Part shown: positions 16,008-41,638 of the stretch, one piece after another | How the letters are laid out: the number at the start of each line of letters is the position of its first letter | How positions within the stretch are numbered: position 1 is the first letter of the stretch | Origin: Amyelois transitella | Taxonomy: Eukaryota; Arthropoda; Insecta; Lepidoptera; Pyralidae | Direction of reading: 5' to 3' | DNA length: 64,000 bases | NCBI RefSeq assembly: GCF_032362555.1 | Contig: NC_083525.1 | Location: 853,501-917,500 of the forward strand | The notes under the pieces: generated by a model | The model's database searches: none | What the model saw: the letters and a program-made list of their open reading frames with translations, nothing else | What the model was told of the DNA's origin: nothing | Translations under genes and position numbers: made by a program

Positions 16008-19000
16008 ATGTCTAACGTAAGCTATGACTTGGATACTTCGGGTGGGCTTATGCCGGTTAGTATTAATTTTTTATGAGTTTTTGACATCGTGATTGTGCAG
16101 CGTTGGTTTGCTGGTTTACATAAAACCATTACCGTCCCAATTTCAGGCATGTAGCATCCAAACTGCTTTATTTTCCTTGCTATCACATTTACAGTGGTTA
16201 GACCAGAGTCACTCTCTGTAGTTAGCTAGTCTGAACTAATTCAAATTCAAACTTTTATTTGCATAATATGAGTACAACAAAGTACTAACGTGATATTAAG
16301 TAATATTCTTGAGCTTTTTTCATACATTGCATTTCTTTCAGCTCATTCGAGCCCTGATCAAGCCTCCAGATGAAGAAGTAAATGCCCCGAAGCCAAAGAA
16401 ACCTCAGCATCCATACTATAAGAGACCTGGTAAAGGACACAACCATGACTCTTGTGACGCATGCGGTGAAGGAGGAGATCTAATTTGTTGCGACCGATGT
16501 CCTGCTAGTTTCCATCTTGGATGCTAGTAAGTAGCCTATACAATAGCTTTTTAAGACTAACTATTTATTTTACAATTAAAAGAATTACTAATACTGGGAA
16601 AAAATGTGTCCTGAATTATATTGGGCTTAAAGTTACCCATTACTTTAAATGTACATGATTTGGCGGGATGTAGAAAACATAAATAATTAATAATAAATAA
16701 ATATATACTGATTACAAAGATTGAGTGGTAAAACTCTTGAAACGGGCCACCGCCGGAGAGGGTTGGGGAGGGGGAGGGGGTAACACCCCCCTCCCGTGAC
16801 CCCCCCTTGCCGGAAGCCTATAGTTTTTTTTTATGAATTTTTAAAGTTTTCATATAAAATGTGTAAAGAGGGATGAAGGGGTGAAGGGGAGTTGAACCTA
16901 ATCTAACCTATACTAGACTTTTTTGACTCAGTTTGAACACTCCGCTCGCTTTGCTCGCTCCGCTTTGGTGGTTTACACCAGACTAACCTAACCTAACCTA
17001 GTTTGATTTGTGACCAACTTGTTTTTTTCATTGCGGGGGGCGGTAGCCCCAACAACACCCCCTCTCCCGTGACACCCCCTTGCCGGAAGCCTATAGTTTT
17101 CTTTTACGAATTTTTAAAGTTTTCATATAAAAAGTGTGCTAAAGGTCATTAACCGCCAGATGGGCAAGGGGGGGGGGGAGTAAGAAGGGATGAAAGGGGT
17201 GAAGGGGAGTTAAACCTAACCTAACCTATACTAGACTTTTTTGACTCAGTTGGAACGCTCCGCTCGCTTCGCTCGCTCCGCTTTGGTGGTTTACACCAGC
17301 CTAACCTAACCCAGTTTGATTTGTGACCAATTTGTATTTTTCATTGCGGGGGTCTAACGCCCCCCGACCCCCCCGACAGCGACAGCTATTTTCGAAGTCA
17401 GTAGATAAGATGACAGTAGCACATAACCAAAACGGCGGATTGCGTTCTGTTCATAGTTAGTGTCTTTTTTGTTTTTACTTTTAAGCAAAGTTTTTGACAA
17501 AATTTTTAGTGCTAAAATATATTAATTAATGTATTGTACATGTTTAATGGACAAACTAATTATGTAATACTAAATTAACACAGTTTACAATGACAAACCG
17601 AAAATATTGCGTTTTGTTTAGTGCAATTTTTAAGATTTTCAAAAATTCATATAAAAAAAAGGGGGGGCTTCCGGCAAAAAAAAATACTTGGCCCCCAAGT
17701 ATTTTTTTTGCCGGTCATACAAACCCTCCCCCACCCTCCCCACCCTCTCCCCAACCTCTCTGGCGGTGGCCCGTTTTAAGAGTTAAGCCATAAATACTTA
17801 TATTGATAAACATCTATCAACCCACATTAATCTGAGAAAGTATTTTGAATGTTTTATTGTATTATTTTCCATTCTTATTATTATATCTTTAGTGACCCGC
17901 CTCTTGATGAGGATGACATCCCCGCGGGGCTGTGGCTGTGTCGGGAGTGCCAGGCCTCCGATGACAAGGCCCCTAGTTCCAGAAGCAGCCGGGCTCAGTC
18001 ACCAGCTGATAAATCTGACGCAGAGAAGAAAACTAGGCAAGTTTTAATTATTCGTCAATAATCAATAATTATGTATATATAATGTAACTGACAAACCACT
18101 TACTAAGTCTTAGTGCACAAGCAATCCTACAACACAATTTTTTGCCAAACTGTGTTGTGCAAATATAGAAATCTATCTGAGACAGTGATATAAGCTCCAA
18201 GTAAAAATTTTTTTAAATCTTCTAGAGAAACATTTGAAAACACATGTGAGTGATATACACGCATCAGCTTTTAGTTGCTAGTGTATAAAAAAATAAGGAG
18301 CACTCCATCTCTTTCCCACGAATGTCATAAAAGGCGACTAAGACTTACGCTTTATACACTTGTGATTCTTCTTTTAGACTATGGGCCAGCAACCTGTCAC
18401 TATTTGAATCTCAACTCTATCATTACGCCTATCGGTTGAATGTGGCCAATCACTCCTTCAAGACTGCTAGCTCCATCTACCCCGCAAGGGATAAAGACGT
18501 GATCAGAAAATTAAGTAATTTATCATCGTTACCAGGTCTCTCCGCAGCCGCGTCAACTCCAAACGCAGCAAGAGCCGTGACGACGAGGACAAGGAGCCGG
18601 AGAAGGAGCCCACACCCATGGAAATCTTGGTGCGGGCCGCCAAGATCATGAACCCCAGGCAGTTTGAGCTGCCCAGCGATATGAAGATCAAGTTTGCGTT
18701 CCCGGGAACTGAAAAAGGTTGGATCATGTTTCTTGTTCAGAAATGTTATGGTTTAAGGAAAATGTGCTGTGTGGTTTCACGGCATAAATAGGAAAAGAAT
18801 AGAACTCCACTTCATTTCGTTACGATATCCATGGGAACCGTCCCGTTCCTATACTCCTCTGAAATGGCTTGACCGATTCTCATGAAATTATGTGAGCTTA
18901 TTGAGTAGGTCCGAGAATCAGCCAACATCTATTTTTCATACCCCTTAGTGATAAGGGTTCTCCACCCTTAACATTTTTTTTATCTAGGAATTACGTTAAA

Positions 19001-22000
19001 ATATTTATATGGCATAACAATGTTTGCGAGGACAACTAGTTTATGGATAGAACTCTTAACCTTTCTAGTATTTATGTTATAGATATATAAGGGAGAAGGT
19101 TTGTTTTTTGCTTTTATTTAAAGCATTTTTGTTAGCTGACCTCTTACTTATTTTTATGCTGGCAACATTAGGATATAGAATAGGGAGTCTGTGGTAGGAG
19201 ATGTAAGACATTAAAAGATGTGTTTTGAAGAAGTCTAATAAAATAAGAAAATTTACGATGCCGAACTGTTTCACATACATACATACATACAAATGATCAC
19301 GTCTATATCCCTAGCGGGGTAGACAGAGCCACCAGTCTTGAAAAGACTGATAGGCCACGCTCAGCTGTTTGGTTAAGTGATAGAATTGAGATTCAAATAG
19401 TGACAGGTTGCTAGCCCATCGCCTAAAAGAAGAATCCCAAGCTTACAAGCCTATCCCTTAGGCGCCTTTTACGACATCCGTGGGAAATAGATGGGGTGGT
19501 CCTATTCATTTTTGTAACGGTGCCGGGAACTACACGGCACTGTTTCACATATATATTCATACATACATACATAAAATCACGCCTCTTTCCCGGAGGGGTA
19601 GATAGAGACTACCTCTTTCCACTTGCCACGATCTCTACATATTTCCTTCGCTTCATCCACATTCATAACTCTCTTCATGCAAGCTCGGCGGTTTCGGGTA
19701 CTTTTGACCTGACCCTTTACCAGGACGTCCTTAATTTGATCAAGATACGTTCGTCTAGGTCTTCCCACTCCGACCTTTCCCTCCACACTCTCCTTGTATA
19801 TCTGCTTAGTCAAACCGCTTTCATTCATCCTCTCCACATGACCGAACCATCTTAACATACCCTTTTCTATTGTTTCACATATGTATAAACAAACATACAT
19901 ACATATGGTCACGTCTATATCCCTTGCGGGGTAGACAGAGCCAACAGTCTTGCAAAGACTGAATGGCTACGTTAACGATAGAATTGAGATCCAACTAGTG
20001 ACAGGTTGTTAGCCCGTCGCCTAAAAAAGAATCCCAACTTTGTAAGCCTATCCCTTAGTCGCTTTTACGACATCCATGGGAAAGAGATGGAGTGGTTCTA
20101 TTCTTTTTGTATTGGTGCCGGGAACCACACGGCACTGTTTCACATATACATATATTCATACATACATACATAAAATCACACCTCTTTCCACTTGCCACGA
20201 TCTCTGCATACTTCCTTCGCTACATCCACATTCACAACTCTCTTCATGCAAGCTCGGCGGTTTCGGGTACTTTTGACCTGACCCTTTACCAGGACGTCCT
20301 TAATTTGATCACATATTTATTTATTTATTTTATTTATTTATTTATTTATTGTGACAAAAACGGTTTACACCTATTACAATTATCACACTTTACAATTTGA
20401 AACACAGGTATATCATATTAAGTTAACCATATTAAATCATATAAAAAATTTGAATAATGTAATTAAATTTGAATACACATAAATTGAAAACAACAAAAAT
20501 AATATTTTAAAAATTTTGTCAATAAAAGTTTTGTCCGTCAGATCTTATATTTAATACAATAATTAAGTTAATCACTTTCGTCAGTGTGAGTGTTATTGGT
20601 ATTAAACATATATATTTTATATATATGATAGATGGCACCAAGAACGGCACCTCGTCCCTGGTGACGGTGGACGCGTGGGGCTGCGTCCCGCTGCCGGCCA
20701 AGAGCTGCTACGTGTGCGAGGGCACCTGCAAGTCCGCACCGCTGCTGCAGTGCGACTACTGCCCGCTGCTGTTCCACCAGGTAACGGATACATACATACA
20801 TATAAATAAACTAGAGGCCGCCCGCGACTTCGTCCGCATGGAAACCCTATCAATCCCGCGGGAACTCTGGGATGAAAAGTAGCCTATGTGTTATTCTGGG
20901 TCTTCAGCTACCTACATACCAAATTTCATGGTGATCGGTTCAGTAGTTTTTGCGTGAAAGATTAACAAATATCCATACATCCATACAAACTTTCGCCTTT
21001 ATAATAGTAGTAGGATAAATAATAAATATATACGGGACAAATTACACAGATTGAGTTAGCCTCGAAGTAAGTTCGAGACTTGTGTTACGAGATACTAACT
21101 CAACGATACTATATTTTATAATATAAATACGTATATACATAGATAAACATCCAAGACCCAGGCCAATCAGAGAAAGTTCGTTTCTCATCATGCCCTGGCC
21201 GACATATAGTCACGTCTATATCCCTTACGGGGTAGACAGAGCCGACAATCTTGAAAAATTATCAGTTGTATGGCTTTAATGATGGATTTGACATTCAAAT
21301 AGTGACAGGTTGCAATAGGATTATTAGCCTTTCCCTTACTCGCTTTTCACGACGTCCATGACATTGTTCTCGTTATATTTTCAAAATACATATATTTGTT
21401 CCTTAAATAATGTACTGTATGCCTTTATTTTAGGCCTAATTATGATTCTTATCAACCAGCAGATTATTATTTTCTTTTTAAAAAATCCTTCTAAATATAA
21501 CACAAGACTTTTGAATGTATTTAATGTTGTTTGTCCAACCTCTTTAGGTAAAAAACATTGTTTGTTTGTCTCCAGGATTGCCTGGACCCGCCGCTGACAG
21601 CACTCCCGACTGGCAGATGGATGTGTCCCAATCACGTGGAACAATACATTGTGAGTTGTCTTTTGGTTTCTCTGTTTCATACATACATACATACATAAAA
21701 TCACGCCTCTTTCCCGGAGGGGTAAGCAGAGACTAACTCTTTCCACTTGCCACGATCAAGATTTCTGCATACTTCCTTCGCTTCATCCACATTCATAACT
21801 CTCTTCATGCAAGCTCGGCGGTTTCGGGTTTCGGCTGTTTCATGCATACATATATATATTCATGTTTGTATAAGGTGAAGACAGGGTCTTAAAAAGACTA
21901 AAATACCGCGTTTAGCTGTATGGCTCAGTGATAGAATTGAGATTAAAATAATGACAGGTTGCGAGCTCATCATCGCCTTTAAGAGGAATCTCAACGTTTT

Positions 22001-25000: not shown

Positions 25001-28000
25001 AATTATTAAGTGTGTTATTATTATTTCTAATAAAATACGCAGTTTTTAATTCTAATATAATAAGTTTATATTAAACTTTTACACAATGTTATAACATGCA
25101 TTACGTACGTACCTACCGCGACAAGACAACAACAGGAACTTAATAAATACCAACTGTCAAAAAAAAGTATTGCCAACCTTTTTCTTTTTTTTTTAAGCAT
25201 AAACATTGCATATACTTTAACAAAGTGATGTATGAAATTGCCCATAAAAAAGAAAAAAAATATTATTTGATGTTTCAGTGCTGAAGAGATTGAAACTGGA
25301 TCCGAAATACGACGCGGCGGACGAGGAAGACGACACACTGCCCAAGCATCAGATCTGTATGACTCTGTCATGCCCGCAGTACTCAGGTGGTGTGTGTCCA
25401 CATCAGAGCAACACGCTGAAAGGGGCAAGCAATGATGACGCCAATGACGACTTGAATGCTATATCGGCTAAGGTAAGTAGGTTGGTAGGATAACTAAGGT
25501 AGGTAAGTAATAGATAGAGTGTGTGATATATATGTTCAAAGAAGTTTGAAATGTTATACAAACTCTTTTTTGTTATGTTCTTGTTTATCTGTGGCGCGGC
25601 GTCCCATGCGCGCGCATCTTAAAAATACATGGCATTCGTGTCCAAGCTATCCTGTGGTTTTATTGTATGATTATTTATAAATATCTATAAATATTCCAGT
25701 GTGGTTTTCGCCTCTTTAGAATTGAACCTTGCCGTGTGGTTCCCGGCACCAATAAAAAAAAGAATAGAATCACTCCATCTCGTTCCGATGGATGTTGTAA
25801 AAGACGACTAAGGGGTAGGCTCTCCCTTGCGAAAGATATTGAGTGGTTCTTTTCTAATATACATATAATCAAGTTTATATCTCCTACGGTGTAGACAGAG
25901 CCAACAGTCTTGAAAAGGTTGATTTTGTTCAGCTGTTTGGCTTAGTGATGGAATTGAGATTCAAATAGTGGCAGGTTGCTAGCCCATCGCCTAAAAGAGG
26001 AATCCCAAGTTTATAAGCCTATCCCTATAAAACTAACCCGTATTGGATCAACCATGGTTACACATCCAGTTGGCTCAATATATTGCGTTACCTCGCGATG
26101 TTTTCCCTCACCATAAAAAAAGCTTTATACATACATATTTACATAAAATCACGCCTTTTTCCCGAAAGGGGTAGGCAGAGACTACATCCTTCCACTTGCC
26201 ACGATCTCTGCATACTCGTACTTCCTTCGCTTCATCCACATTCATAACTCTCTCTAGCTCGGCGGTGTCGGGTACTCTTGACCTGACCCTTCGCCAGGAC
26301 GTTCTTAATTTTAATGAAGCTTTATATTAACATAAACTCACGCCTCTTTCCCGGAGGGGTAGGCAGAGACTACCTCTTTCCACTTGCTACGATCCCTGCA
26401 TACTTCCTTTGCTTCATCCACATTCATAACTCTCTTCACGCAAGCTCGGCGGTTTCGGGCACTTTTGACCTGACCCTTCACCAGGACGTCCTTAATTTGA
26501 TCAAGATATCGCACATCCGATAAAATACTGTTACAAGTCGAAAAATCGTGATTTTGAGTTAAGTAAACCACTCGATCCATATTAAAATTCTCTATCAAAA
26601 TCAAATATCGTTGTAACTTTAGTTACAAAAATGTCCGCGTGAGGGCGTTGTGGCGGTTTATTACTAAGCAAGTTTTCGCATGACACGTCCTTGAATAGTG
26701 TTACGTGTCACATTGAAACGAGCGGTAGTGTTTGTCGTCCGCGTAAAAACCGTTGTAACTTGAAATAAGACACTAATACAGAAAAGGTAAGTGTATTATC
26801 CATTCAAGATTATTCTTATAAAATGTAATATTTTTTGTTACAACAATACTTGTCCTAACAATTTATCTTGTAGTTGGTTTATATTTGTAATATAATGTTA
26901 CATTTCAGTTTATAACAAATAAAATACCCAGTACTATCTTGAAAAGTGATACATTTTAATTTGCCACCTTATATCAGATAAAAATATTACAGTCTTCAAA
27001 TTCATTAATAGAAAAATATTGTAATATTATGAGTTGTTGCAGTTTTTAATAATTTGTTTGTTTGATATTTTTTGTAATTTAAGTAAGATAGAGATTAATT
27101 TTGCCATATTACCCTATTCAACATTTTTCCAAAAGATTTTTATTTATAATTTAAAACAACGTAACCGTTATTTAACTTTATTACCATATTTGAGAAACCA
27201 ATTTGTTTGCATTATACTGTTTGGTTTAATTTAAATAGAACGAATTGTCATTGTAACTATGTTTATGATGATAATGTCTTACATCGTATCATTAAAAGTA
27301 TCTAAATGTAGCATTGTTTGAAATTATAATGGTATATTCTACTTCATAAATTTTTAAATAAGTACCTACCTACCTCTTAGCTGCGACAAAAATATGTTGT
27401 ATCTGTATGTAGGTACTTAGCACTTAGTTACTGATTATGTCCATATTTTAAATAACACTTTCAGGCTTGAATAATGAGGAGAGTCGACAGAATATTGGAT
27501 TTGGCAAAAGCATTAAAGGACGAAGGTAAATAACAGTATAATAACAGATTCATCACTGGTTATTGGTTAACTATAATTAATAATTGGTTAAACATGAATT
27601 TAAAATTATTAATTTTGTCGATGTTATGTTGCTGACCAAATTGTTTTTTTCAGAATCCGATAATATACGAGAGAAAGAGAATATTGAGCCTACCGTTTCG
27701 CCTTCAATAATACGTAAGTAGTATTTGGCTTTAACCTTCTCTTTTAATTTTTCAGGATAAATGACTTATCATACACATAAACTTTTAACGCTTTTTTTAT
27801 ATTTGATTTCAGATTCTACTCATGGCGCTAATCCTATACAAGACAATATTTCTAAAGAAAAATCGTCATCAGATTCTTCAAACACATCGAGTTCCAGTTC
27901 GTCGTCATCATCCTCATCGGATACAGTATCTATCATAGAAGGCTCCGAAGCCAGCTTTATAGAAGACTCCGATGATTCCGTAAGAGATCCTGATTTTGTA

Positions 28001-31000
28001 AGACCAAATAATAAAGGAGTTGTTATAAGTGAAACCGATGATAGTGATCATGAAGATGCTTCTGGCCTATCAACTGTTGTTATAGAACCTGTACCAACAT
28101 CATCAAACAATTTGCAATCTCTAACTGGTTTAGATTCACAGAGGAAAAATACAAGGAAACGTGTAGCAAATCCTAAAGAGTGGAGGCAAAATAAAGCAAA
28201 GTTTCTTCGAAACGCAGGTTCTTGTTTTCTATTCTGATAATGCCAGTGGTCAGAATAAAAACCGCTTTATAACAGCAATTTACATGTATTGTGTAATTAA
28301 ATTTGATAATTTAAATTCCATTACGCACAAATTTCTCATTACCGGTCATACACAAAATGAAGGGGATGCCGTACATTCGGTTATTGAAAAGAGTATCAAA
28401 AGGCATCTCAAATCCGGGCCTATTTACGAACCTTCACAGTATATACAGATTATGAAAGGTGCTAAAAAATCTGGTGAGAAATATAACGTCAACGAATTGT
28501 CTTACCATGATTTTATATCTTTGAAAAAGTTGGCAAACGACTTGAAAATGAAAACAATAACAAAAATTTCTGAAATGAAAGTTATTAAAATTGAGGCTGA
28601 ATCCCCGGATATTTTGTACTACAAAAATTCTTTTGCTGATGAAGATTTTTCTACATTAAAACTATTAAAAACCATTCCTATATTACCTCCTTTGAAGCCT
28701 GCTTATTTGGGACCAATAGCTTTAAGTGAAAATAAAAAGTCTGATTTAAAAAGTCTGTTAAAGTCTAATCATATACCTAAGTTCTATGAAGGATTTTATA
28801 AAAGTCTTTTCCAAGATAATGATTAAGTGTTGTTTACTAAGTATGTTCTGTAGGCTGTGATTATTTTACTAAGATTACTAGCAAGGGTATTATTGATAAG
28901 AGGATTATTGATTATGTCATTAAGTACAAAAATTTTATTAGTTTCATAGAAGAGCGAAGTAATACCTAGTAATAAGGTATTTTTTTCGAAGTTAAAGATT
29001 GTTAAGTTTTTTTGTGTTCTCATAATTGTAGGTTGTGTTTTTTGTTACTACGAGTATTATTACTGTACGGGTATTGATTATAGGGTTGATTATGTGCCAT
29101 ATTTTATTAACGTACCAAATTGTCTCTCATTAGATTAAAGTGTAAAGTGTAGTTTACGGAGCTTGAGATAGAGAAACTATCTAAAGTAACGATTTATTAA
29201 TAATGTAAGTATAATAAATAATAATTTTGTTATATTCATTATTGTTTGCTAAACTATTTCATTAAACTGATTAAAAAATATATATTGCAACATTATTTGA
29301 CTAATTGTTTTATTTCTATTTTCTATTTTTTTTTCTCTAATATAACGTTATAAAGAAAGTCAGCTGTAGGGTAACTGACAAATATACATAAAAGTCTAAA
29401 AATACGCATTTTCAGCTTTCCAAACATATATATAACATGTAATTATTGTTAAGACAAAATGCGAAAAAAAGCTTTGATGTGACTTGAATAGTTTTTTGGC
29501 CTTCCTGAAAAAGGTTAAATTTTGACTTAAAACAGTATTTTATCGGATGTGCGATATGTTCGTCTAGGTCTTCCCACCCCGACCTTTCCCTCCACACTCT
29601 CCTTGTATATCTGCTTAGTCAACCTGTTTTCATTCATCCTCTCCACATGACCGAACCATCTCAACATACCCTTTTCTATTCCTGTAACTACATCTTCTTT
29701 CACATCACAACATTCCCTTATCACTTTATATTAACAATATTATATTTCCCAGATGGAAAAAACGGGGGATTCGAGCGAGCTGTCGGACTCGGACTGCGAG
29801 CACTTGACGGCGGCGGTGAAGAAGCGCTCGCCGCGGCGCCGGCGCAGGCTGTCGCTGCGCGCGGGCGCGGACGCCGCCAGCCTGCTGTCGGCCGTGGACC
29901 AGCAGCTGGGCCAGCTGGACCAGCGGCTGCTCAAGCTGCTGGCGTGGCAGCGGCTGCAGCAGGTACCCCCCCCTCCGTGCGCCCCCTCCTTGCCATTTTG
30001 AGAGCATCCTGGCATTTCACCACGATGCCCTATCCGGGAATCTTGCTGTAACAGGCGACCAGTAAGTAGCTGGCCAGGGTCGGGGAGTGACCCTGGTGAG
30101 GCAGTAGGTGCGCACGATAAAGAGCAGGTACCCCACCAGCTCGAATAGACGCTGCACATATTCCTTTGAATAGCTTAAATCTTATATTTTATGTTTGGTT
30201 AGCCGGCTTGTGCCGTGTGGTTGCCCGGCACCTATAGAAGAAAAGAATAGAACCAATCCATGCATTTCTCATGGATGTCGTAAAGACGACTAAGAAATGG
30301 GCTTATAAATATAGATTTATAGATAATATATAATAATAGATAAAGGCGTGATTGTATGTATGTTTATGTTTAGATAAGAAACAGAGGACCCAAAAGAGAG
30401 CCTTGTGGGACACCAAAAAACATTGGCTTTAACTGAGATGTTATTTCATATAAAATATCCCGTTTTTTTTTCACATTTTCCATTATTTCTTTGCCCCTTA
30501 TAATTGCAGCGTGATGTTTCATATCTGAAGCCTTCCTCGAAAAATGGTCTATTCAACGCAAAAAGAATTTTTCATTTCGGACCAGTAGTCCCTGAGATTA
30601 GCGCGTTCAAACAAAAAACAAACTCTTCAGCTTTATATTATTAGTATAGATTATGGAACATTTCAAATATCACATAATAATCATATCATTTGGTAACACA
30701 ACATTGGTTGACGTCAAAGGGACGCCAGGTTAGGTGTAACGCCTGGGGAACCGCGCGACAGACGTTGAGTCTGAGACTCCAATCTATAAAAATTTTAATA
30801 TCGCGGTTTAGACTCTCTCTCATCTCTGCGTGTACCCTCCACAAAATGTTTCTGGTCCCCGAGGTCCGCTTTCTGACTTCTCTCCACCTGGTCACGTACG
30901 TTACGGAGATGAAGAAAATATCAAAATCAAAAATCAAAAATGTTTTATTTTCTGAAACAGATAATGATCTTATAACTAGGTGTTGGAGTCTCCTTTTAAG

Positions 31001-34000
31001 CTATCAAAAGATGCTTGTGTCAGGAGGCTCCGCTCCTCTTATTAACATAACAGTAATTATGATCTAGTTACTTGTATTGAATTACAAAAAAATAAATAAA
31101 ATCAACTAAGAATACAAAAACTTATCCATGAACAATCCATGAACAGTTCCGCTTCAGAATAGGTAAGATTCAATAGCCATCTATTTAGAATATCTTTTAC
31201 AACATATTGAGTATATTTCTAGTTGTTTGTTAGCTTTGTTGTATAGATAACAAGACCGTTTATCATATTGAATACTGGCAAAATGGGTTTTTGTAATTGG
31301 TAACTCAACGACATTATGTTTTCGTAATTCACGTCACGTAAGGCTACCGCTGACATGGGAGTTCCTCCTTCCGTGATACTCCAGACACTCCAGCGCAGCA
31401 TGATCATTTTCGTGGCCACGTCTCGTTGCCATATTGTTATTAGGACATGCGTAATGATTGATTTAAGTCCCGCTCTTTTAGCCTGACCGGCATTTAGCGC
31501 GTGACGGTCTTGATTTCGCTTCATACATACATACATAAAATCACGCCTCTTTCCCGGAGAGGTAGGCAGAGACTACCTCTTTCCACTTGCCACGATCTCT
31601 GCATACTTCCTTCGCTTCATCCACATTCATAACTCTCTTCATGCAAGCTCGGCGGTTTCGGGTACTTTTGACCTGACCTTTTACCAGGACGTCCTTAATT
31701 TGATCAAGATACGTTCGTCTAGGTCTTCCCACTCCGACCTTTCCCTTCACACTCTCCTTGTATATCTTGTAGTCAACCTGCTTTCATTCATCCTCTCGAC
31801 CAAACCGTCGCTTCATCGTAATGATTTAGCTTCCTATGGCATAAGATCCCTGGTAATGCGTTCAGGTGCTAGTGGGCGAGCGTTGCTACGGGCCGTGGAA
31901 GGAGTCGGCGCTGAGCGGGCGCGCCGCCGCCGCCGTGCACGCCAGCGTGGACCGCGGCCGGCTCGCGCGGCTCGGCTTCCGGCCCTACACGCTGCCCAGC
32001 CAGCTGCTCAGCAGCCAGGACCGCGCCCACATCGCCGCCACAGGTACAGTGGCCAGCGTGGACCGCGGCCGGCTCGCGCGGCTCGGCTTCCGGCCCTACA
32101 CGCTGCCCAGCCAGCTGCTCAGCAGCCAGGACCGCGCCCACATCGCCGCCACAGGTACAGTGGCCAGCGTGGACCGCGGCCGGCTCGCGCGGCTCGGCTT
32201 CCGGCCCTACACGCTGCCCAGCCAGCTGCTCAGCAGCCAGGACCGCGCCCACATCGCCGCCACAGGTACAGTGGCCAGCGTGGACCGCGGCCGGCTCGCG
32301 CGGCTCGGCTTCCGGCCCTACACGCTGCCCAGCCAGCTGCTCAGCAGCCAGGACCGCGCCCACATCGCCGCCACAGGTACAGTGGCCAGCGTGGACCGCG
32401 GCCGGCTCGCGCGGCTCGGCTTCCGGCCCTACACGCTGCCCAGCCAGCTGCTCAGCAGCCAGGACCGCGCCCACATCGCCGCCACAGGTACAGTGGCCAG
32501 CGTGGACCGCGGCCGGCTCGCCTGCCACGGGTTCCGGCCCTACACTCTCTTCGTGTGTTTGAAATAACACTCGTCATGGCAATGTTTCGACTCCCGAAGA
32601 CCACCTTCCAGCTTTTTTCCAGCCAGCAAAGGTCGCGGAAGTCAGATGGAAGTCGCTTCGTGTAAAAACCTGACTCACCCAATCCAGGATTCATGTTATA
32701 TACTAGGGATTCCTCTTTTAAGTGATTGGCTAGCAACCTGTCACTATTTGAATCTCAATTCTATTATTAAGCCAAACAGCTGAACGTGGCCTTTTCAGTC
32801 TTTTGATGTCTGTTAGCCCTGTCAACCCCGCAAGGGATATAGACGTGATTGTATGTTATGTTATGTAAATAATATGTTCTCTTTCAGTATTCGGCGAGCC
32901 GAAATCATCTCCGCCTCGCGCGGATCTGAAGCTGTGTCCGGCGCCGCACGTGCCCGCCAAAGCGACGCTCTGCGAACTACTGAGACCAACCAGGTATTAA
33001 TCATTTCTACATTCATTCATGTTTTTTAATGTAGACAAAATTCAAAATTTTTATTCATTACTATAGGATATATCGCTTAATAATTGTCAAAACGTATGGT
33101 TTAACAACATTGGTTGACGTCAAATAAATAACTTAAAAACTAAGTTTATTGCCGCTTCCAAGGCTTCAGTGCAGAAGAAGCGGTAACAAACTGCACTGCA
33201 GCATTTTCTTCAACAACGTTAACTTCACAATATTACAATCACAATAAGACAATGTGCATTCGTCCACGATGTAGTTTTAAAGAGATCTATATTTGTAAAT
33301 TGACGTCCGATGAAAATGCTGCAGTGTAGTTTGTTCGCCGCTTCTTTTACACATGCCCTTTGGAAGTGGTAGTAGTTACTTATAATTAGATTTAAGTTAT
33401 GTGACGTCAATAAGTGATACTTTGTATCCAATTTTGAAAATAAATCTATTCTATTCTATTATAGTTACTATAGTTTAGTGTGTGTATACGGGGTGTGAAA
33501 TACTTCTATTGGATTCTGTTCCTGCCTGAAATGTTGTAAAGAGGGTTTTCCGAATCAGGTTTATATTTTACTAGCTGTGCCCGCAACTTCGTCCGCGTCG
33601 AATATTTATTATAGGCATCATTGAAGTCCTCAAGGATGACTCATTCTCCCCGTTTTTTTTTCACATTTTCCATTATTAATTGGCTCCTTATAATAGCAGC
33701 GTGATGTTATATAGCCTAAAGCCTTCCTCGATAAATGGTCTATTCAACGCAAAAAAAATTTTTCAATTCGAACCAGTAGTTCCTGAGATTAGCGCGTTCA
33801 AACAAACAAACAAACTCTTCAGCAGATATTCAACTAGCGACCTGAGTTTGAAGTAATGACATTAGTTTGAATACTAACCGATGCTCTTACGGTGAGGGAA
33901 AACATCGTGAGGAAACCTGCACATTCAGGCAACTGGATGTGTAACCATGATCGATTCAATACGGGTTAGGTTTACCTGCAAAGTTTGCAGAGGTCAGATG

Positions 34001-37000
34001 CAAGTCGCTTCGTGTAAAAACCTGACTCACCCAATCCAGGATCCATGGTCAAAGGCACACCCCGGGCTCCTCTCCAGAGTTGTGAGGATGCAACCTTGAC
34101 TAAACCACCAGGAGGAGGAAGGTCAACTTTGCAGTGCAGTTTGTTACCGCTTCTTCTGCACTGACGCCTTGGAAGCGGCAGTAAACTTAGTTTTAAGTAG
34201 TTTATTTGACGTCAACCAATGTTTTGAAACCAAACGTTTTGACAATTATTAAGCGATATGAAGTATCGTATAATAATGAATAAAAATTTTGAATTTGAAT
34301 TGAATTTGAACTAGCGACCCGCTCCGGCTTCGCACGTGTAGCATTTATAAAATATGTACATGATTCGGAAAACCCTCTACAACATTTCAGACAGGAACAG
34401 AATCCAATAGAAGTATTTGACACCACATCAAATAATTTTTATAAGTAGCTCAAATGTGTGGTATTTTCATGTAATGCAATCGATGTATATAAATTTGATG
34501 TCGTGTGATTTATTATATAGAACCACTCCGTATCTTTCACGTGGACGTCGTAAAAGGCGCTTAATAATATATGCTTGGGATATATACTTTGCGAGACTGT
34601 TGGCTCTGTCTACCCCGTAAGGAATAAAGACGTGATTATATGTTTGTATGTATACCTACAGAATAAGTACCTATCTGACATATTGTCTTATAATATTGCT
34701 AAAATTTGGTTTTTTCTTTGTAATATAATTTAATCTATTTAATATAAATTTCCAGCAAGCTGTCTTGGTATTGTTTTATCATATTGCTCAAATTTAGGTA
34801 TTTTCTTTGTAATATAATTTAATTAATTCAATATAAATCTCCAGCAGCGGCCTCGGAGATGCCCTGGGCCCCCCGATCGCGATGCGTCTCTCCTCGCTCT
34901 CGGTGGGGACCGACAGCGGCTGTGACGTCACGCTGTACAAGCCGGGCTGCCGGGCGTTGTCCAAGCGGCACGCCGTCATCTTCCTGGACGAGGTGAGCGG
35001 CGGGAATGGGGGGGTAGGCAGCGGTTATCGTCTCCCAGCGGGGACGGACAGTCTCTGAATCTTGACGGCCTCTGTGGCGCAGCGGTAGTGACACCGGAGG
35101 TCCCGGGTTGGAATCCCGGCCAGGGCATGATGAGAAACGAACTTTCTCCGATTGGCCTGGATTTTAATTTGCAATGCGATTCAGTAGAAACTTTGTATTA
35201 ATCATGTGAAGTTATATCTGTATAATGTGCCGTGTGGTTCCCGGCACTAATACAAAAAAGAATTGGACCACTCCATCTCTTTCCCATGGATGTCGTAAAA
35301 GCCGACTAAGGGGTAGGCTTATAAACTTGGGATTCTTCTTTTAGGCGATGGGCTGGCAACCTATCACTATTTGAATCTCAATCCTATCTTAAAGCCAAAT
35401 AGCTGAACGTGGCCTATCAGTCTTTACAAGACTGTAGGCTCTGTCTACCCCGTAAGGGATATAGACGTGATTATATGTATGTCTGTATGTGAAGTTATAT
35501 TTTCTTTTCAGAAGAGATATATAATTTTTTTTTTGTATTTCAATTGTTTCTAACAGGTGACGCGTCACTTCGAACTGATCAACTACTCGGAGTGGGGCTC
35601 CCTGGTGAACGGGGTGCTGTACGCGTGCGACGCCGCGCCGGAGCGCCGCGCCGCGCCCGCCGAGGCTGCGCACGCGCACACGGCGCACGCGCACGCGGCG
35701 GACACGGCGGACGCGCGCGGCGAGCCGGCCGCGCCCGACGGAGCCGCGGCCCGCGCGCGCGCCGTCAGGGAGCTCGTGGGGAGCAAGGCGCCGCTCAGGT
35801 CACTGATACGTACATCCTACTACTATTATAAAGGCGAAAGTTTGTATGGATGTTTGTTACTCTTTCACGCAAAAACTACTGAACCGATTACCATGAAATT
35901 TGGTATGTAAGTAGCTGAAGACCCAGAATAACACATAGGCTACCCCTTTTTATCCCAGAGTTCCCGCGGGATTTATAGGGTTTCCATGCGGATGAAGTCG
36001 CGGGCGGCCTCTAGTACATACATACATCTATATCTCTGGCGCGGTACGCACGAGTCAATACACTTGAAAACACTGGTGGGCCACGTTCAGCTATTTGGCT
36101 ATTATACAGGGTGACTTTTAATTCAACTGCATAATTTTAACTGTTAAGTGTACTCATCTAAAGGATATTTAAAAACGTTAAAAGAAAAATATCGGTTCAT
36201 ATTTCAGAAAGAACGAAAAAAAAGTATGAAAATCCATGATCCTAAATACGTCATATCACCCCGGCCGGCGGAAAAGCGACGCGTATGATTCAGAGGTCAA
36301 CGACACAATTCATTCAGCTGAGCGATCTCGACAAATATAATTTAATTTTCAGACATTTATTTACATGTTTAGTTTTAATTTCTTTTTGTAGTATTGGTCT
36401 TTAATAAAGCGTGTGACGTAGTTTTTGAGGGTTTTTTTAAATGTGAAAATGATGCGTTTAATTTAAATAAAAATAGGCTCAAACAGCTCAGAAGCATGGG
36501 TATAGTCTATGTTTAAAAGGATGCAGTTGTGAGGGTTTTTTTAAATGTGAAAATGATGACGTTTAATTTAAATAAAAATAGGCTCAAACGGCTCAGAAGC
36601 ATGGGTATAGTCTATGTTTAAAAGGATGCAGTTGTTTTAAAAGTCTCCCTGTATATCTCTGGCGCGGTACGCACGAGTCAATAGACTTGAAAACACTGGT
36701 GGGCCACGTTCAGCTATTTGGTTATTATATTTCACTAGCGACCCGCCCCGTCTTCGCACGGGTGCAAAATTATAAATGTTATTATATCTACATAAAAACC
36801 TTCCTCTTGAATCACTCTACCTGTTACAAAAAACCGCATCAAAATCCGTTGCGTAATTTTAAAGATTTAAGCATACAGACAAACAGGCTAAAATAGCGAC
36901 TTTGTTTTGTACTATGTAGTGATATATCGCACCTTTAGAATTATAGAGACCTTATCCAAAAAAAGTAGAAACAGCGAAAACCGAAACCGATCTCAAACCG

Positions 37001-37568
37001 AACGCACATTGGGTGATGGGAGGGCATGAAAGAGACCGAAATATACGCGTAGCTCATCTCACGCGAAAACAGGCCTTTGTTTTAATAAAAGTTGGTAGGT
37101 ATGGTCGTTTTAAGTCACTCTATGACTGAAAGTCAAAATCTCAAAATTTTGGATTACATACATACATACATATAATCACGTCTATATCCCTTGCGGGGTA
37201 GACAGAGCCAACAGTCCTGAGCGGACTGATAGGCCACGTTCAGCTATTTGGCTTTAAGATAGAATTGAGATTCGAATAGTGACAAGTTGCTAGCCTATCG
37301 CCTAAAAAAGAATCTCAAGTTTGTAAGCCTATTTTGGATTAGTTTTCTATAATTCTAAAGGTGCGATATCGTTGGTTCCAGGCCCGCGGAGCCGGCGGAG
37401 GGCGCAGCGCCGTGCGGCTGCCGGGCTCCGCTGGCGGCCGCGTGGGAGGGCTCCGCGCTGCTGCCGCACGGCGCTCTGCTGCAGTTCGGCTGCGCCGTCT
37501 ACGTGTTCAGCATCGCCGACGCCGCCGCCTGTCCCTACGAGGAGAACGAGCGCGATCCCGCGATATAA
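16008..37568 (+). CDS. Phf12: PHD finger protein 12 (PHF12/Pf1) homologue, 15 exons
   Basis: In mammals PHF12/Pf1 is a nuclear corepressor that bridges MRG15 and SIN3-HDAC complexes. Exons: 16008-16055, 16342-16526, 17893-18036, 18536-18717, 20632-20780, 21576-21650, 22788-22921, 24421-24539, 25279-25472, 29753-29962, 31866-32043, 32888-32993, 34845-34992, 35557-35798, 37382-37568. Joined, these give 2301 nt (766 residues); every junction keeps frame. The start encodes [10 protein letters not shown], as in vertebrate PHF12. PHD1 is at about residues 54-97 (CDAC…CCDRCP…FHLGC…WLCREC). PHD2 is at about 212-257 (CYVC…CDYCPLLFH…WMCPNH). The FHA-like region is in exons 13-14 ([18 protein letters not shown]). 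The C-terminus [10 protein letters not shown]…VYVFSI also matches the family. Human PHF12 is about 1000 residues; the insect protein lacks most of the Ser/Pro linker. Oddities: a GC-AG intron after exon 3, tandem copies of the exon 11 3' end (up to 914 residues if retained), and very GC-rich 3' exons. Confidence 0.95.
16056..16341 (+). other. PHF12 intron 1
   Basis: Donor 'ccg|gttagt' and acceptor 'tttctttcag|'. No repeat recognised. Confidence 0.8.
16690..16730 (-). repeat. SINE-T fragment, left of inserted element
   Basis: 'aataaatatatactgatt…gattgagt' matches the 3' end of SINE-T. The SINE resumes at about 17782-17850 ('ataaacatctatc…aatctgagaaagt'), so the element between the two pieces sits inside a SINE-T copy. 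About 60 bp of the SINE middle is missing. Confidence 0.65.
16731..17781. mobile_element. 1.05-kb inverted-repeat element in PHF12 intron 2
   Basis: The left end 'actcttgaaacgggccacc' and the reverse complement of the right end 'actcttaaaacgggccacc' form inverted termini of about 45 bp. Inside are two direct copies of a block of about 300 bp ('gccggaagcctatagtttt', then 'cgctcgcttcgctcgctccg', then 'ggtggtttacacca'), and a palindrome at 17671-17720 around 'aatacttggcccccaagtat'. There is no long reading frame, so it is non-autonomous. The family is not recognised. Confidence 0.7.
18296..18500 (+). repeat. Family B, 5'-truncated
   Basis: From 'gagcactccatctctttccc' to 'aagggataaagacgtgat', in PHF12 intron 3. 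It ends about 35 bp before the exon 4 acceptor at 18535. Confidence 0.75.
19273..19545 (-). repeat. Family B, full length
   Basis: Complete copy from '(cata)n' to 'ctacacggcac'. Directly followed by LINE-A at 19565. Confidence 0.85.
19565..19880 (-). repeat. LINE-A, longest single 3' fragment
   Basis: The minus strand encodes an open RT C-terminal tail: [20 protein letters not shown], then [19 protein letters not shown], then [20 protein letters not shown]. This is the C-terminus of an RTE-like endonuclease/reverse-transcriptase LINE polyprotein. The 3' end is 'cgtgattttatgtatgtatg'. Confidence 0.8.
19890..20140 (-). repeat. Family B, full length
   Basis: From 'catacatacatatggtcacg' to 'ccacacggcac', with a short deletion after 'gaatggctacgtt'. 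Confidence 0.85.
20165..20312 (-). repeat. LINE-A 3' fragment
   Basis: Lacks the 'cccggaggggtaggcagag' segment. Truncated at 'cttaatttgatca'. Confidence 0.75.
20809..21013 (+). repeat. Family C' retroposon
   Basis: Starts 'aaactagaggccgcccgcga', has 'accaaatttcatggtgatc' and ends 'cctttataatagtagtagg'. Inverted relatives lie at 35808-36015 and, as a fragment, at 50940-51030. Confidence 0.7.
21014..21203 (-). repeat. SINE-T lacking its tRNA head
   Basis: The body is intact up to 'catgccctggccga' and is then cut by the tail of a family B copy at 21204. The tRNA-like promoter half is gone. Confidence 0.75.
21204..21360 (-). repeat. Family B fragment
   Basis: From 'catatagtcacgtctatatc' to 'cacgacgtccatgac'. 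The 5' head is missing. Confidence 0.7.
21680..21835 (-). repeat. LINE-A 3' fragment
   Basis: Lies 30 bp after PHF12 exon 6. Contains 'cacgcctctttcccggaggg' and breaks off at 'cggcggtttcggg'. Confidence 0.75.
21870..22015 (-). repeat. Diverged family B copy
   Basis: Recognisable blocks: 'gacagggtcttaaaaagact', 'gatagaattgaga', 'gacaggttgcgagc'. Confidence 0.5.
22260..22400 (-). repeat. Family D retroposon fragment
   Basis: Contains 'gtatcacttattgacgtcac' and 'ctaccgcttccaaagcgc'. It is inverted relative to 33285-33470. Confidence 0.55.
22465..22720 (+). repeat. Family B, full length
   Basis: From 'gccgtgtggttcccggcagc' to 'tatgtatgtatg', ending 70 bp before PHF12 exon 7. Confidence 0.85.
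23055..23610 (-). repeat. Family B copy split by a minisatellite
   Basis: The tail part (23055-23092, '…tcacgtttatatcgcttg…') and body (23380-23610, 'gacagagctaacagtcttga' to 'cgcacggcac') flank a 22-bp tandem repeat and about 85 bp of other sequence. Confidence 0.7.
23093..23297. repeat. 22-bp minisatellite, about 9 copies
   Basis: The unit 'ttttatgtatttaatagtt' plus 'aaa' repeats almost perfectly; one unit has g for a ('tatgtgttt'). Lies in PHF12 intron 7. Confidence 0.95.
23745..23970 (+). repeat. Family B, 5'-truncated
   Basis: From 'ccatgaatgtcgtaaaaggc' to 'catatgtatgtatgtatg'. Confidence 0.8.
24541..24722. repeat. (TAC)n-rich microsatellite
   Basis: An interrupted run of tac/tgc/act triplets begins at the second base of the exon 8 donor (GT at 24540-24541) of PHF12. 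Confidence 0.9.
24880..25075 (-). repeat. Family D retroposon
   Basis: 'atgctgcagtgcagtttgtt', then 'agtaatttatttgacgttaa', then 'gacaattattaagtg'. Shares blocks with 34123-34300. Confidence 0.55.
25724..26025. repeat. Inverted pair of family B pieces
   Basis: A plus-strand head (25724-25830, 'gccgtgtggttcccggcacc') is followed by a minus-strand tail and body (25860-26025). Both are partial. Lies in PHF12 intron 9. Confidence 0.65.
26033..26105 (-). repeat. SINE-E fragment
   Basis: The complement of 'ggtgagggaaaacatcg' and 'atggttgatccaatacggg' is present; the rest is missing. Confidence 0.6.
26135..26310 (-). repeat. LINE-A 3' fragment
   Basis: Diverged copy directly left of a second LINE-A copy at 26330, in the same orientation. 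Confidence 0.7.
26330..26509 (-). repeat. LINE-A copy interrupted by the 3.0-kb transposon (3' part)
   Basis: Runs to '…cttaatttgatcaagatat'. The same copy resumes at 29554 with 'atatgttcgtctaggtcttc', so its two halves flank the DNA transposon precisely. Confidence 0.9.
26510..29553 (+). mobile_element. 3.0-kb DNA transposon with TIRs and ATAT duplication
   Basis: The left end 'CGCACATCCGATAAAATA…' (26510 on) is matched by the reverse complement of the right end (to 29553) for 23 bases without error, then with a few mismatches to about 37 bases. ATAT flanks both sides (26506-26509 and 29554-29557). The LINE-A copy around it reads continuously once the element and one ATAT are removed, which proves insertion. 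It holds an intron-containing transposase-like gene on the plus strand, internally deleted. A likely 5' non-coding exon ends at 26785 (gaaaag|gtaagt). It is in PHF12 intron 9, sense to PHF12. A Sola-like assignment is only a guess from the 4-bp ATAT and the protein motifs. Confidence 0.9.
27474..28826 (+). pseudogene. Transposase-like gene, internally deleted and frameshifted
   Basis: Exons 27474-27525, 27654-27713 and 27813 onward join in frame from [17 protein letters not shown]. An acidic, Ser-rich region follows (poly-Ser near 27890, then [11 protein letters not shown]). A basic block [20 protein letters not shown] comes next, and the frame stops at 28237. A second frame (open from 28218, stop 28826) starts [17 protein letters not shown] and continues with [20 protein letters not shown]. 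These blocks are the two ends of a large family of insect and cnidarian transposase-like hypothetical proteins. In that family SDNxxxQNKN and GHTQNExDxxHS look like parts of a metal-binding DDE/D-type core. The middle, a few hundred residues in intact relatives, is missing and the two halves differ in frame, so this copy is probably inactive. Family naming is from memory. Confidence 0.75.
29554..29725 (-). repeat. LINE-A copy, 5' part right of the transposon
   Basis: The minus strand encodes [20 protein letters not shown], then [20 protein letters not shown], continuous with the part ending at 26509. It ends 27 bp before PHF12 exon 10. Confidence 0.9.
30212..30365 (+). repeat. Family B, internally deleted
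   Basis: Head 'gccgtgtggttgcccggcac', then 'aatgggcttataa', then the tail 'gcgtgattgtatgtatg'. Confidence 0.65.
30375..30652 (+). repeat. Family C retroposon
   Basis: Shares 'cattttccattatttcttt', 'atggtctattcaacgcaaaa' and 'cctgagattagcgcgttcaa' with 33573-33832 and 38336-38573. Confidence 0.7.
30716..31080. repeat. Two further dispersed repeats
   Basis: 30716-30790 ('gtaacgcctggggaaccgcg') resembles 15119-15220. 30905-31080 begins with a (TCAAAAA)n-like run and 'tgttttattttctgaaacag', resembling an old retroposon 3' end. Confidence 0.4.
31524..31800 (-). repeat. LINE-A 3' fragment
   Basis: The minus strand encodes [20 protein letters not shown] and the following RT tail. It lies 65 bp before PHF12 exon 11. 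Confidence 0.8.
31942..32520 (+). repeat. 111-bp tandem repeat covering PHF12 exon 11 3' end
   Basis: Steps begin at 31942, 32053, 32164, 32275, 32386 and 32497. The first five are identical by eye; the sixth diverges after about 24 bp ('ctcgcctgccacggg'). Each unit contains the end of exon 11 (HIAAT, then G) and its donor ACAG|GTACAG. GT positions are 32044, 32155, 32266, 32377 and 32488. Since 111 is divisible by 3, all units are also open in the PHF12 frame. Confidence 0.97.
32628..32695 (+). repeat. SINE-E fragment
   Basis: 'gtcagatggaagtcgcttcg' then 'aaaacctgactcacccaatc'. Confidence 0.6.
32700..32875 (+). repeat. Family B, 5'-truncated
   Basis: From 'gggattcctcttttaagtga' to 'gattgtatgttatgttatg'; ends about 12 bp before PHF12 exon 12. 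Confidence 0.8.
33106..34430. repeat. PHF12 intron 12 block of families D, C, SINE-E and an inverted pair
   Basis: Family D at 33106-33205 (plus), 33285-33470 (minus) and 34123-34300 (minus). Family C at 33573-33832. SINE-E at 33880-34115. A further repeat at 33495-33562 ('atacttctattggattctgt') recurs inverted at 34363-34428. No exon was seen. Confidence 0.6.
34495..34660 (+). repeat. Family B, internally deleted
   Basis: From 'gaaccactccgtatctttca' to 'gattatatgtttgtatg'; the middle is lost. Confidence 0.7.
34683..34848 (+). repeat. Duplicated acceptor region before PHF12 exon 13
   Basis: 34683-34760 and 34771-34848 are tandem copies with an 88-bp period, each ending in a polypyrimidine-poor tract and 'ccag|cagc'-like sequence. 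The left copy ends 'tttccag|caagctg' and does not continue into the exon 13 sequence; the right copy is the acceptor used in my gene model. Confidence 0.85.
35066..35165 (+). repeat. SINE-T 5' half
   Basis: 'cctctgtggcgcagcggtag' then the B-box 'gggttggaatccc'. Truncated after 'ttggcctgga'. Confidence 0.8.
35228..35495 (+). repeat. Family B, full length
   Basis: From 'gccgtgtggttcccggcact' to 'tatgtatgtctgtatg'; ends about 60 bp before exon 14. Confidence 0.85.
35808..36015 (-). repeat. Family C' retroposon
   Basis: Inverted copy of 20809-21013, from 'tcctactactattataaagg' to 'gcgggcggcctctagt'. It begins 9 bp after the exon 14 donor. Confidence 0.75.
36029..36729. repeat. 78-bp direct repeat flanking a 545-bp element
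   Basis: 36029-36106 and 36652-36729 differ at about two positions. They derive from a diverged family B body ('acgcacgagtcaata', 'gggccacgttcagctatt'). The element at 36107-36651 sits exactly between them. Confidence 0.85.
36107..36651. mobile_element. 545-bp TIR element (CAGGG ends, TATA flanks)
   Basis: The left end 'cagggtgacttttaattcaa' and the reverse complement of the right end 'cagggagacttttaaaacaa' form inverted termini of about 35 bp with a few mismatches. TATA flanks both sides (36103-36106, 36652-36655). It contains a tandem duplication of about 104 bp (36427-36530, 36531-36635). No coding capacity was seen. Confidence 0.8.
36731..36922 (+). mobile_element. LEP1-like element (possible Helitron relative)
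   Basis: Starts 'tcactagcgacccgccccg', contains 'cttcgcacgggtgc' and 'aatccgttgcgtaatttt', and ends 'ttttgtactatgtagtgat'. The TC start would fit a Helitron. The class is inferred from memory. Confidence 0.5.
36928..37365. mobile_element. 438-bp MITE with CGCAC ends and ATAT duplication
   Basis: TIR of at least 20 bp, 'CGCACCTTTAGAATTATAG' at 36928 and its complement ending at 37365. ATAT flanks at 36924-36927 and 37366-37369. It carries a family B copy (37155-37335, minus) inside it. It ends 16 bp before PHF12 exon 15, so the branch-point region of that acceptor probably lies in the MITE. Confidence 0.85.
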
Positions 37569-37587
37569 GTTGTACTCGTATTGGACT

Positions 37588-37965
37588 TGGTGCCGTGTGG
37601 TTCCCGGTATCAATAGAAAAAAAGTATGGGAACATTCCGTCTCATTTCTCATGGATTTCGTTTAAGGCGACTGAGGAATAGGCTTATAAACTTGGAATTC
37701 TTATTTTAGGCAATGGGCTAGCAAGCTATTTGAATCTCAATTCTTGTCAATCTCAAGTCTTGATAGACTGACAGGCCACATTCACCTAATTGCTTGCAGA
37801 TGGTTTTGTGATTCGAACAGTATCAGGTTGCTAGCCCATCGCCTAAATGAGGAATCCTAAGTTTATAAGCCTATGCCTTAGTCGCCTTTTACGACATCCA
37901 TGGGAAAGAGATGGGAGTGGTCCTTTTATTTTTTTCTATTGGTGCCGGGAACCACACGGCACATG
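37588..37965. repeat. Head-out inverted family B pair in PHF12 3' flank
   Basis: A plus copy (37588-37750, from 'gtgccgtgtggttcccgg') is followed by a minus copy ending 'ccgggaaccacacggcac' at 37965. Lies 20 bp after the PHF12 stop, so it is probably in its 3'UTR. Confidence 0.75.
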
Positions 37966-39590: not shown

Positions 39591-39677
39591 ATTCATTCGC
39601 CGTGAGGCATCTGTAGTAAGCGCACGCGCTTGTCTGTTAGAATTATAATTCCCAGTGCTTCCCAAACCTCGGTTACG

Positions 39678-40586
39678 ATGTTCACCTGTATCAGTTGCAA
39701 TAAGGAGCACTCAGATGGGCCGGTGTGCTGTGTTTGTAAGAACCAGTTCGACTTCGCATGTGCCGGCGTCACAGAAACCGGGTTTAGAAGACTGGGTGAA
39801 AGAAGAAATAACTGGCGGTGCCCTGGGTGTAAGTCCGGATCTTCACTTTCGCCTGCCGCAACATCCCCAATGCCTTCCCAGTTGGACAGTATACAGGAGC
39901 AGTTGAGTCGGATCACTTTCCAGCTGGAGCCGTTGAAGTCTCTCACGGCAGATGTTGCCGTTATCAAGGCCGAAATGTCAGATTTAAAAGCCTCTGTTGA
40001 AATGGCTCACTCGGCTTTTGCGTCTTTGGATGCTCGCGTCAAAAGTGTTGAAAAGGCTTTGACAGAGATCCCTGATTTGCAGGAGGAAGTATGCAGACTG
40101 CGGCAAGAGCTTGAGGATAGGGATCAGTGGGCTCGAGCGAACAATGTCGAGATCCGTGGGGTACCCTTAAGGAAGGGAGAAAATCTATATGAGATTGCGG
40201 AAAGGATAGGGGAGTTGAGTAATTTCCCTATAAGAAGGGAATCTATAAGCTACATTGCGAGGATACCTACTCGAGTGCCTGATGCTGAGAAACCTATAAT
40301 AATATCGTTTAATAATAGATATATTAAAGAAGATTTGGTGGCGTCCGCGCGTAAAAGCAAGCAGCTTACGCTCGCAGGTTTGGGTTTCTCTGCTACTGGT
40401 CCGTTCTACGTAAACGACCATCTGACCCAGAAGAATAAGACCTTGTTAAGTAAGGCGAGATCACTGGCTCGAGAGACGGATTTCAGATATGTTTGGGTGA
40501 AGCATGCAAAAATAATGGCCAGAAAATCCGACACGTCACCTGTTTTTATTATAAGAAACGAAAAAGACCTTTTAAAAATAGTTTAA
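39678..40586 (+). CDS. Non-LTR ORF1 protein: PHD-like finger, coiled coil, nucleic-acid-binding C-terminus
   Basis: 302 residues from an ATG at 39678. Residues 1-50 form a Cys-rich PHD-like finger (CISC…CCVC…DFACAG…WRCPGC). Residues of about 65-150 are a heptad-like coiled coil (LDSIQEQLSRITFQLEPL; ALTEIPDLQEEVCRLRQELE). Residues of about 150-300 resemble the FP/RRM-like C-terminal part of insect LINE ORF1 proteins (NNVEIRGVP; FYVNDHLTQKNKTLLSKAR). In this group ORF1p coats the element RNA. The frame is intact. An upstream TTG at 39630 would add 16 codons, but the ATG is preferred. Confidence 0.85.
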   Translation: MFTCISCNKEHSDGPVCCVCKNQFDFACAGVTETGFRRLGERRNNWRCPGCKSGSSLSPAATSPMPSQLDSIQEQLSRITFQLEPLKSLTADVAVIKAEMSDLKASVEMAHSAFASLDARVKSVEKALTEIPDLQEEVCRLRQELEDRDQWARANNVEIRGVPLRKGENLYEIAERIGELSNFPIRRESISYIARIPTRVPDAEKPIIISFNNRYIKEDLVASARKSKQLTLAGLGFSATGPFYVNDHLTQKNKTLLSKARSLARETDFRYVWVKHAKIMARKSDTSPVFIIRNEKDLLKIV

Positions 40587-40666
40587 CTTTGTTTCTTGAA
40601 TGCGTTAGACTCCCGAATTTGCAGTCTTTTAGATTTTGTTATAAACTTGTAAGCAGATTGAGAACC

Positions 40667-41638
40667 ATGCGTGCATTCCTTCCTTTGTGTTTTTATGTGA
40701 GTCGGCTCGGTGGAGCGGGCTACCTGTTTCCGCAGGTAAGTGCTCGTAGGCAACGGCAGTGCGCGCCGCAGCTTCGACTGTGCGCACGCGTTGCAAGAAA
40801 CACATTTGTATGTTGGAGATTTGACTGCGCACTTCGCAGTTTGTTTACATCGCATGTCATTATTTACGCTGAGCTTACGGTATTTCTTATAACTCTCCAT
40901 TCACTCGCCTGCGTTCTATGCAATTTATTCTTCGGCTTAAATTCCTTATTTGCATTTAGTTTTACCTGGATGCTAGGACACTTTTTTCGGCTAAATAGTT
41001 ATATTTATTTTGCATATTTCTCTCAGACTATTTTAAATCCTCATTTATCGCCAAACGTTAGTTTAATTTATCTTTGTTATAATTTGCTTAGTGCCAGTGC
41101 AGTATCTGTCAGTAATATTTTTATTTGTAGGTTTTTGATGTCATTGTTTATTTTAAGTATTAAACTGATAACGTACATAAATTATTTGCTATATGCAGTA
41201 CCTTGTGTCGGAACTGATAATATTATTATATATAGTTCGCATAAGTTACTTATGTTATATATAAATATTATAGCTATAGTTGATTATTTTTATTTTATCG
41301 TTAACGCATTCGGTACTATTTTTATTTTATGTAAGATTGTGACGTTAAGTAAAAGTAGATTGTCGTTTTTCGTTTATTTACATTATTTCCTTATATATTT
41401 TGCAATTGTTCACTGTAATATTATTATCAATTTCTTGATAATATCGATATTGATTAGAAGACTTGTATTGAATACATGTTATTTATACAGATTTCTGTAT
41501 AAATCGATTAGTTACAATGCTGACATTAATATTATTTTTATCTGGTATCTAGTACTGAGGTTCATTATATTATCTACTATAGTCTTTACAAAGTTTCTAC
41601 TTAGACTTATGTTGATTATTATTAATTGTGGATTCTAA
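40667..41638 (+). CDS. Extra hydrophobic ORF in the retrotransposon inter-ORF region
   Basis: A frame open from within ORF1 (about 40493) to 41638. From its first ATG (40667) it gives 323 residues. It overlaps the end of ORF1 in another frame if read from upstream, and overlaps ORF2 by 11-20 nt. The first 60 residues after the ATG are Arg/Cys-rich. The rest is almost entirely hydrophobic (for example FLIISILIRRLVLN; YFYFIVNAFGTIFIL), with Tyr and Ser between possible membrane helices. I recognise no family. T-rich DNA gives such a composition by itself, but more than 320 codons without a stop in AT-rich sequence is unusual. Confidence 0.4.
   Translation: MRAFLPLCFYVSRLGGAGYLFPQVSARRQRQCAPQLRLCARVARNTFVCWRFDCALRSLFTSHVIIYAELTVFLITLHSLACVLCNLFFGLNSLFAFSFTWMLGHFFRLNSYIYFAYFSQTILNPHLSPNVSLIYLCYNLLSASAVSVSNIFICRFLMSLFILSIKLITYINYLLYAVPCVGTDNIIIYSSHKLLMLYINIIAIVDYFYFIVNAFGTIFILCKIVTLSKSRLSFFVYLHYFLIYFAIVHCNIIINFLIISILIRRLVLNTCYLYRFLYKSISYNADINIIFIWYLVLRFIILSTIVFTKFLLRLMLIIINCGF

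Follow-up and report, generated by a model that had tools for sequence, protein, structure and literature searches.

Sola transposons are described, in the passages of PMC10741241 that concern them, as having a DDD transposase, 4-bp duplications, a length of mostly 2-9 kb and terminal inverted repeats (TIRs) from 11 bp upwards (PMC10741241). Sola2 elements, as covered in the relevant passages of PMC3627910, have AWWT duplications, such as ATAT, AAAT and ATTT, and TIRs of 12-21 bp (PMC3627910).

The window analysed here, a stretch of 64,000 nucleotides from Amyelois transitella, contains an element with the remains of a gene of the Pfam family DUF7869 (PF25273). The explanation that we favour, at a probability of about 87%, is that this is a recent cut-and-paste DNA transposon, that DUF7869 is its transposase, and that Sola is the best fit, probably Sola2. 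The first-pass annotation had described the cargo as belonging to an uncharacterised transposase-like family, and this family proves to be DUF7869, whose Pfam entry names no function. A Pfam family of this kind, found here inside defined transposon ends, is now tied both to those ends and to a target rule.

Insertion site and ends

A complete, clean DNA-transposon insertion with a duplicated tetramer is confirmed at 26510-29553 of the window. Its features are as follows.

26386..26505, no strand: left flank, target high-copy repeat, tested length only (joined-flank match)
26506..26509, no strand: left target-site duplication, ATAT (single ATAT in empty sites)
26510..29553, plus strand: DNA transposon, internally deleted copy of 3044 bp (six other genomic copies)
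26510..26532, plus strand: left TIR, 23 bp exact (end comparison and pattern search)
29531..29553, minus strand: right TIR, 23 bp exact (end comparison)
29554..29557, no strand: right target-site duplication, ATAT (flank reading)
29558..29677, no strand: right flank, the same high-copy repeat continued, tested length only (joined-flank match)

The two ends are an exact inverted match over 23 bp, or 27 bp if ATAT is counted, in agreement with the earlier estimate of at least 23 bp. As a control for chance, 20-mer inverted repeats up to 5 kb apart were counted, giving 191 seeds in the window, compared with none in 19 of 20 mononucleotide shuffles and two in the remaining one. Because the 191 seeds include other repeats as well as the TIRs of the element, its genomic copies are the stronger evidence for the ends.

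The insertion lies in a high-copy repeat, named LINE-A in the first-pass annotation, which had held that this repeat is colinear across the break and that ATAT is duplicated on both sides. Both points stand. A query made of 120 bp of left flank, one ATAT and 120 bp of right flank gave 1812 candidates in the initial search, and all 40 of the genomic places that were scored match it end to end, at 99% over positions 1-244. Two empty sites aligned base by base have no gap and one ATAT.

Copies of the window family

Further copies ending in these TIRs, which the earlier reading had predicted, are present in the host genome. Seven left ends and four right ends were recovered with a 201-base query taken from the left terminus, and a 22-base end pattern, with 3 mismatches allowed, matched at 21 places compared with one for the reversed control. 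In total seven copies of the window family were found, six of them with both ends, measuring 3044 bp (C21, the window copy), 2433 bp (C8), 2321 bp (C9), 2305 bp (C15), 2586 bp (C25) and 6522 bp (C32) between the duplications; the copy on C1 stops 9 bp short of the right terminus. Other end matches, on C30, C1 (2136268), C6 and C16 (4336604), are weak and unpaired, and when these loci were compared with the element by blastn only C30 gave a match (116 bp, 83%), the other three giving none.

Pairwise differences among the copies are low (0.1-1.2%), ranging from 0.15 to 1.17% in the left 1300 bp of all seven and from 0.13 to 0.90% in the right 800 bp of six (C1 omitted), and the family is therefore young. 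All seven copies are broken or deleted, so that those found in the host genome include no intact member of this exact family. One internal deletion junction is common to C8 and C1 and another to C9 and C15, with breakpoint overlaps of 7-8 bp; the internal deletion of the window copy was found in no second copy of the family. As C9 and C15 have the same junction in different flanks, the simplest reading is that the deleted form moved after the deletion occurred, using transposase supplied from another source. The common junction could also have arisen by repeated, independent deletion at these short repeats.

The DUF7869 gene and its fate in the window

The inferred gene model and the Pfam match place the following features within the window copy.

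27474..27525, plus strand: exon 1 of the DUF7869 gene, with GT donor (inferred model)
27654..27713, plus strand: exon 2, with AG acceptor and GT donor (inferred model)
27813..28234, plus strand: exon 3, serine-rich N-terminal part, the frame ending soon after the deletion junction (inferred model)
28206..28826, plus strand: C-terminal transposase remnant, DUF7869 (PF25273, E 4.9e-9; Pfam match of the stretch 28167-28823)
28220..28222, plus strand: internal deletion junction (comparison with the C32 copy)

Joined across their GT-AG introns, the inferred exons encode a truncated product of 178 aa, the frame being shifted by the internal deletion near 28220. The remnant keeps the second and third conserved acidic residues and has lost the first conserved aspartate. 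The proposal that this copy had lost its core is thus borne out, as is its description as a non-autonomous derivative, since the gene core is deleted and both ends are retained.

Compared with the C32 copy, about 3.5 kb is absent from the window copy, of which about 2.5 kb is a piggyBac element nested in C32. The C32 copy has parts of the gene that the window copy lacks, but also an in-frame stop and this nested piggyBac, which has TTAA ends at L035 2814-5304, a TIR matching at 15 of 16 positions and a 619-aa ORF (PF13843, DDE_Tnp_1_7, E 5.8e-67).

A sister family and the probable identity of the transposase

A sister family, with the end sequence CGCACCTCC, has TIRs related to those of the window family, and three of its copies have paired TIRs. 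Its C16 copy (3726 bp) contains an intact DUF7869 ORF of 772 aa, and at C32:5382817-5390786 paired TIRs surround an ORF (C32:5383775-5385922) that is 99% identical to it. Relatives of the gene are therefore flanked by such ends, as had been predicted, and four more DUF7869 families have sharp ends and 4-bp duplications. Both findings that could have refuted the earlier reading, a lack of further copies with these TIRs and relatives of the gene without such ends, thus turned out in its favour. The sister transposase (L037) is a single ORF, compared with two introns near the start in the window gene model.

An alignment of seven diverse long ORFs and the window remnant contains three invariant aspartates, the first in 7/7 of the proteins that reach it and the second and third in 8/8 each. 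The second lies in DxxxGQNKN and the third in GH[ST]xxxxD; a glutamate seven residues after the third is replaced by lysine in three of the eight. The natural reading of these residues is as a putative DDD catalytic triad, with catalysis predicted from sequence. Divergence is considerable, the aligned ORFs outside the subgroup of the protein P0001 being 16-29% identical to it. Since the genes lie inside defined ends, with 4-bp duplications and a shared D-D-D triad, DUF7869 is very likely a transposase.

It might instead be suggested that the DUF7869 gene is carried as a passenger and that an unrelated transposase moves the ends, and the lack of an intact gene in all seven copies found of the window family would agree with this. 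However, between the ends of the sister C16 element no ORF but that of DUF7869 exceeds 106 aa, DUF7869 ORFs carry the invariant acidic triad, and the sole other transposase encountered belongs to the piggyBac nested in the C32 copy, which has TTAA ends of its own. We regard the passenger reading as very improbable.

With DUF7869 as the transposase, a long protein supplied by relatives, its DUF7869 part and D-D-D triad forming the catalytic region, would recognise the TIRs and carry out insertion at A-W-W-T, the 4-bp stagger giving rise to the 4-bp duplication. The chemistry is presumably cut-and-paste rather than copy-paste. The window copy, with the middle of its gene lost and its frame shifted, would make no transposase; having kept both ends, it could be moved in trans.

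Searches with the proteins were also made. PF25273 gave a significant match for the window remnant and six long ORFs, and DUF7869 was the only Pfam family over the cut-off in the six DUF7869 proteins. With NCBIfam nothing exceeded the cut-off in four DUF7869 proteins, the transposase-associated DUF2080 appearing as a weak match below it (E 0.16). The PDB sequence search gave no meaningful match, the best having an E of 2.7 and lying in the serine-rich part, and the fold predicted for the window remnant alone, without an alignment, had a pLDDT of 33.9, too low to be informative. DUF7869 was not mentioned in the literature searched, hence no link to Sola was found there.

DUF7869 elements across the host genome

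In the host genome DUF7869 has 120 matches, compared with none in any of 14 control genomes, and many of the matches are stop-to-stop frames of 588-1084 aa. Pattern searches for relatives gave seven matches in viral contigs and 16 in prokaryote genomes, of which none was confirmed. Ends were examined at 30 loci (about 3.5 kb around the best of the 120 matches), at the window and sister loci and in six extra stretches. At L043, L044 and L047 copies match over the whole length, so that the ends lie outside the stretch examined. Six families have readable ends, namely the window and sister families and those of L042, L050, L059 and L067, and DUF7869 elements measure about 1.9-8.0 kb.

Across these six families, equal 4-bp flanks were found in 19/19 insertions with both ends readable. 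The tetramers were ATAT (13), ATTT (2), AATT (2), ACAT (1) and AAAT (1); because six of the 19 differ from ATAT, the tetramer must be duplicated and does not belong to the element itself. Insertions with one end missing were left out of this count, these being C1 (L034), L045, L048 and the C16 copy of the L067 family, whose left end was not found in L076. On the left side L045 is flanked by ATAT and L048 by AATT, and among ten further right-side flanks eight are AWWT, the others being ATTG and ACTT. AWWT fits 18 of the 19 duplications, the exception being the ACAT. AWWT, rather than ATAT alone, is therefore the target. The claim that the family could be tied to defined termini and a target preference thus holds for the ends and the 4-bp duplication, but strict use of ATAT does not.

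In the L050, L054 and L065 groups, identity between copies is 99.3-100% across most of 3.4 kb. The near-identical copies (L050-L053; L054, L056, L057, L059, L060 and L062; L065-L068) have open frames of 697, 603 and 588 aa respectively. Such families, near-identical and with long open frames, are candidates for an active system. It would be better to treat DUF7869 genes, with their 120 matches, as mobile elements and mask them than to include them among the genes of the host.

The matches are unevenly spread, 27 of the 120 lying on C32 (12.4 Mb), a contig that makes up 3.8% of the genome (binomial p 7e-14, with copies that are not independent). C32 may represent a sex chromosome, or else some other chromosome rich in repeats.

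Placement among known superfamilies

By structural features, as set out in published descriptions of Sola rather than in Sola protein sequences, the DUF7869 elements are probably Sola2. The 4-bp duplication of all 19 insertions is that of the Sola superfamily, and the three invariant aspartates (7/7, 8/8, 8/8) would correspond to its DDD transposase. Element size and the 23-bp exact TIR of the window copy fit the ranges given for Sola (PMC10741241), and the AT-rich AWWT duplication, in 18 of 19, is that of Sola2 in the relevant part of PMC3627910 (PMC3627910). The Sola2 elements of Dictyostelium and Polysphondylium treated there are alike in TIRs, AWWT duplications, a long transposase and internally deleted derivatives; those examples also carry Fanzor1 (PMC3627910).

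The same features bear on whether these elements form a DDD superfamily separate from Sola that shares 4-bp AT-rich duplications by chance. Such a separation would be in keeping with the Pfam and NCBIfam results, in which there is no sequence link to Sola, and with the low identity (16-29%) outside the P0001 subgroup, but the AWWT duplication, DDD triad and size agree with what the sources, in the parts cited above, say of Sola or Sola2, and we consider it doubtful. It is also unlikely, and slightly more so, that DUF7869 defines a large non-Sola DDD superfamily of its own (D[NGA][CA]xGQNKN, GH[ST]xxxxD, AWWT) with several intact, near-identical families jumping now.

Within Sola, Sola3 uses TTAA, which would exclude it. 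Kolobok elements also target TTAA. A relationship to piggyBac or Kolobok would account for a 4-bp duplication, but TTAA occurs in 0/19 duplications and the six DUF7869 proteins have no DDE_Tnp_1_7 match in the scan that gave 5.8e-67 for the nested piggyBac ORF, making this relationship extremely improbable. Ginger elements combine a 4-bp duplication with a retroviral-type integrase; Ginger was rejected, since rve matched none of the six DUF7869 proteins even with E values up to 1 admitted.

Setting of the element in the window

The element lies in or beside a PHF12 gene, as judged from a Pfam scan of ten window ORFs, and its placement in intron 9 by the first-pass annotation is a possible one. 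An ORF at 18519-18788, upstream of the element and on the same strand, contains the MRG-binding domain of PHF12 (PF16737, E 1e-17), and a PHD match below the cut-off is at 20526-20879. Six plus-strand ORFs downstream of the element, from 29509 to 37662, had no Pfam match.

Further along the window, long adjoining ORFs at 39606-44522, the first with a Baculo_FP_2nd domain, are probably a near-complete LINE; this domain occurs in ORF1 of some non-LTR elements. At 48397-50370 there is an uninterrupted ORF of 658 aa which, by eye, resembles an intronless Hsp70 gene.
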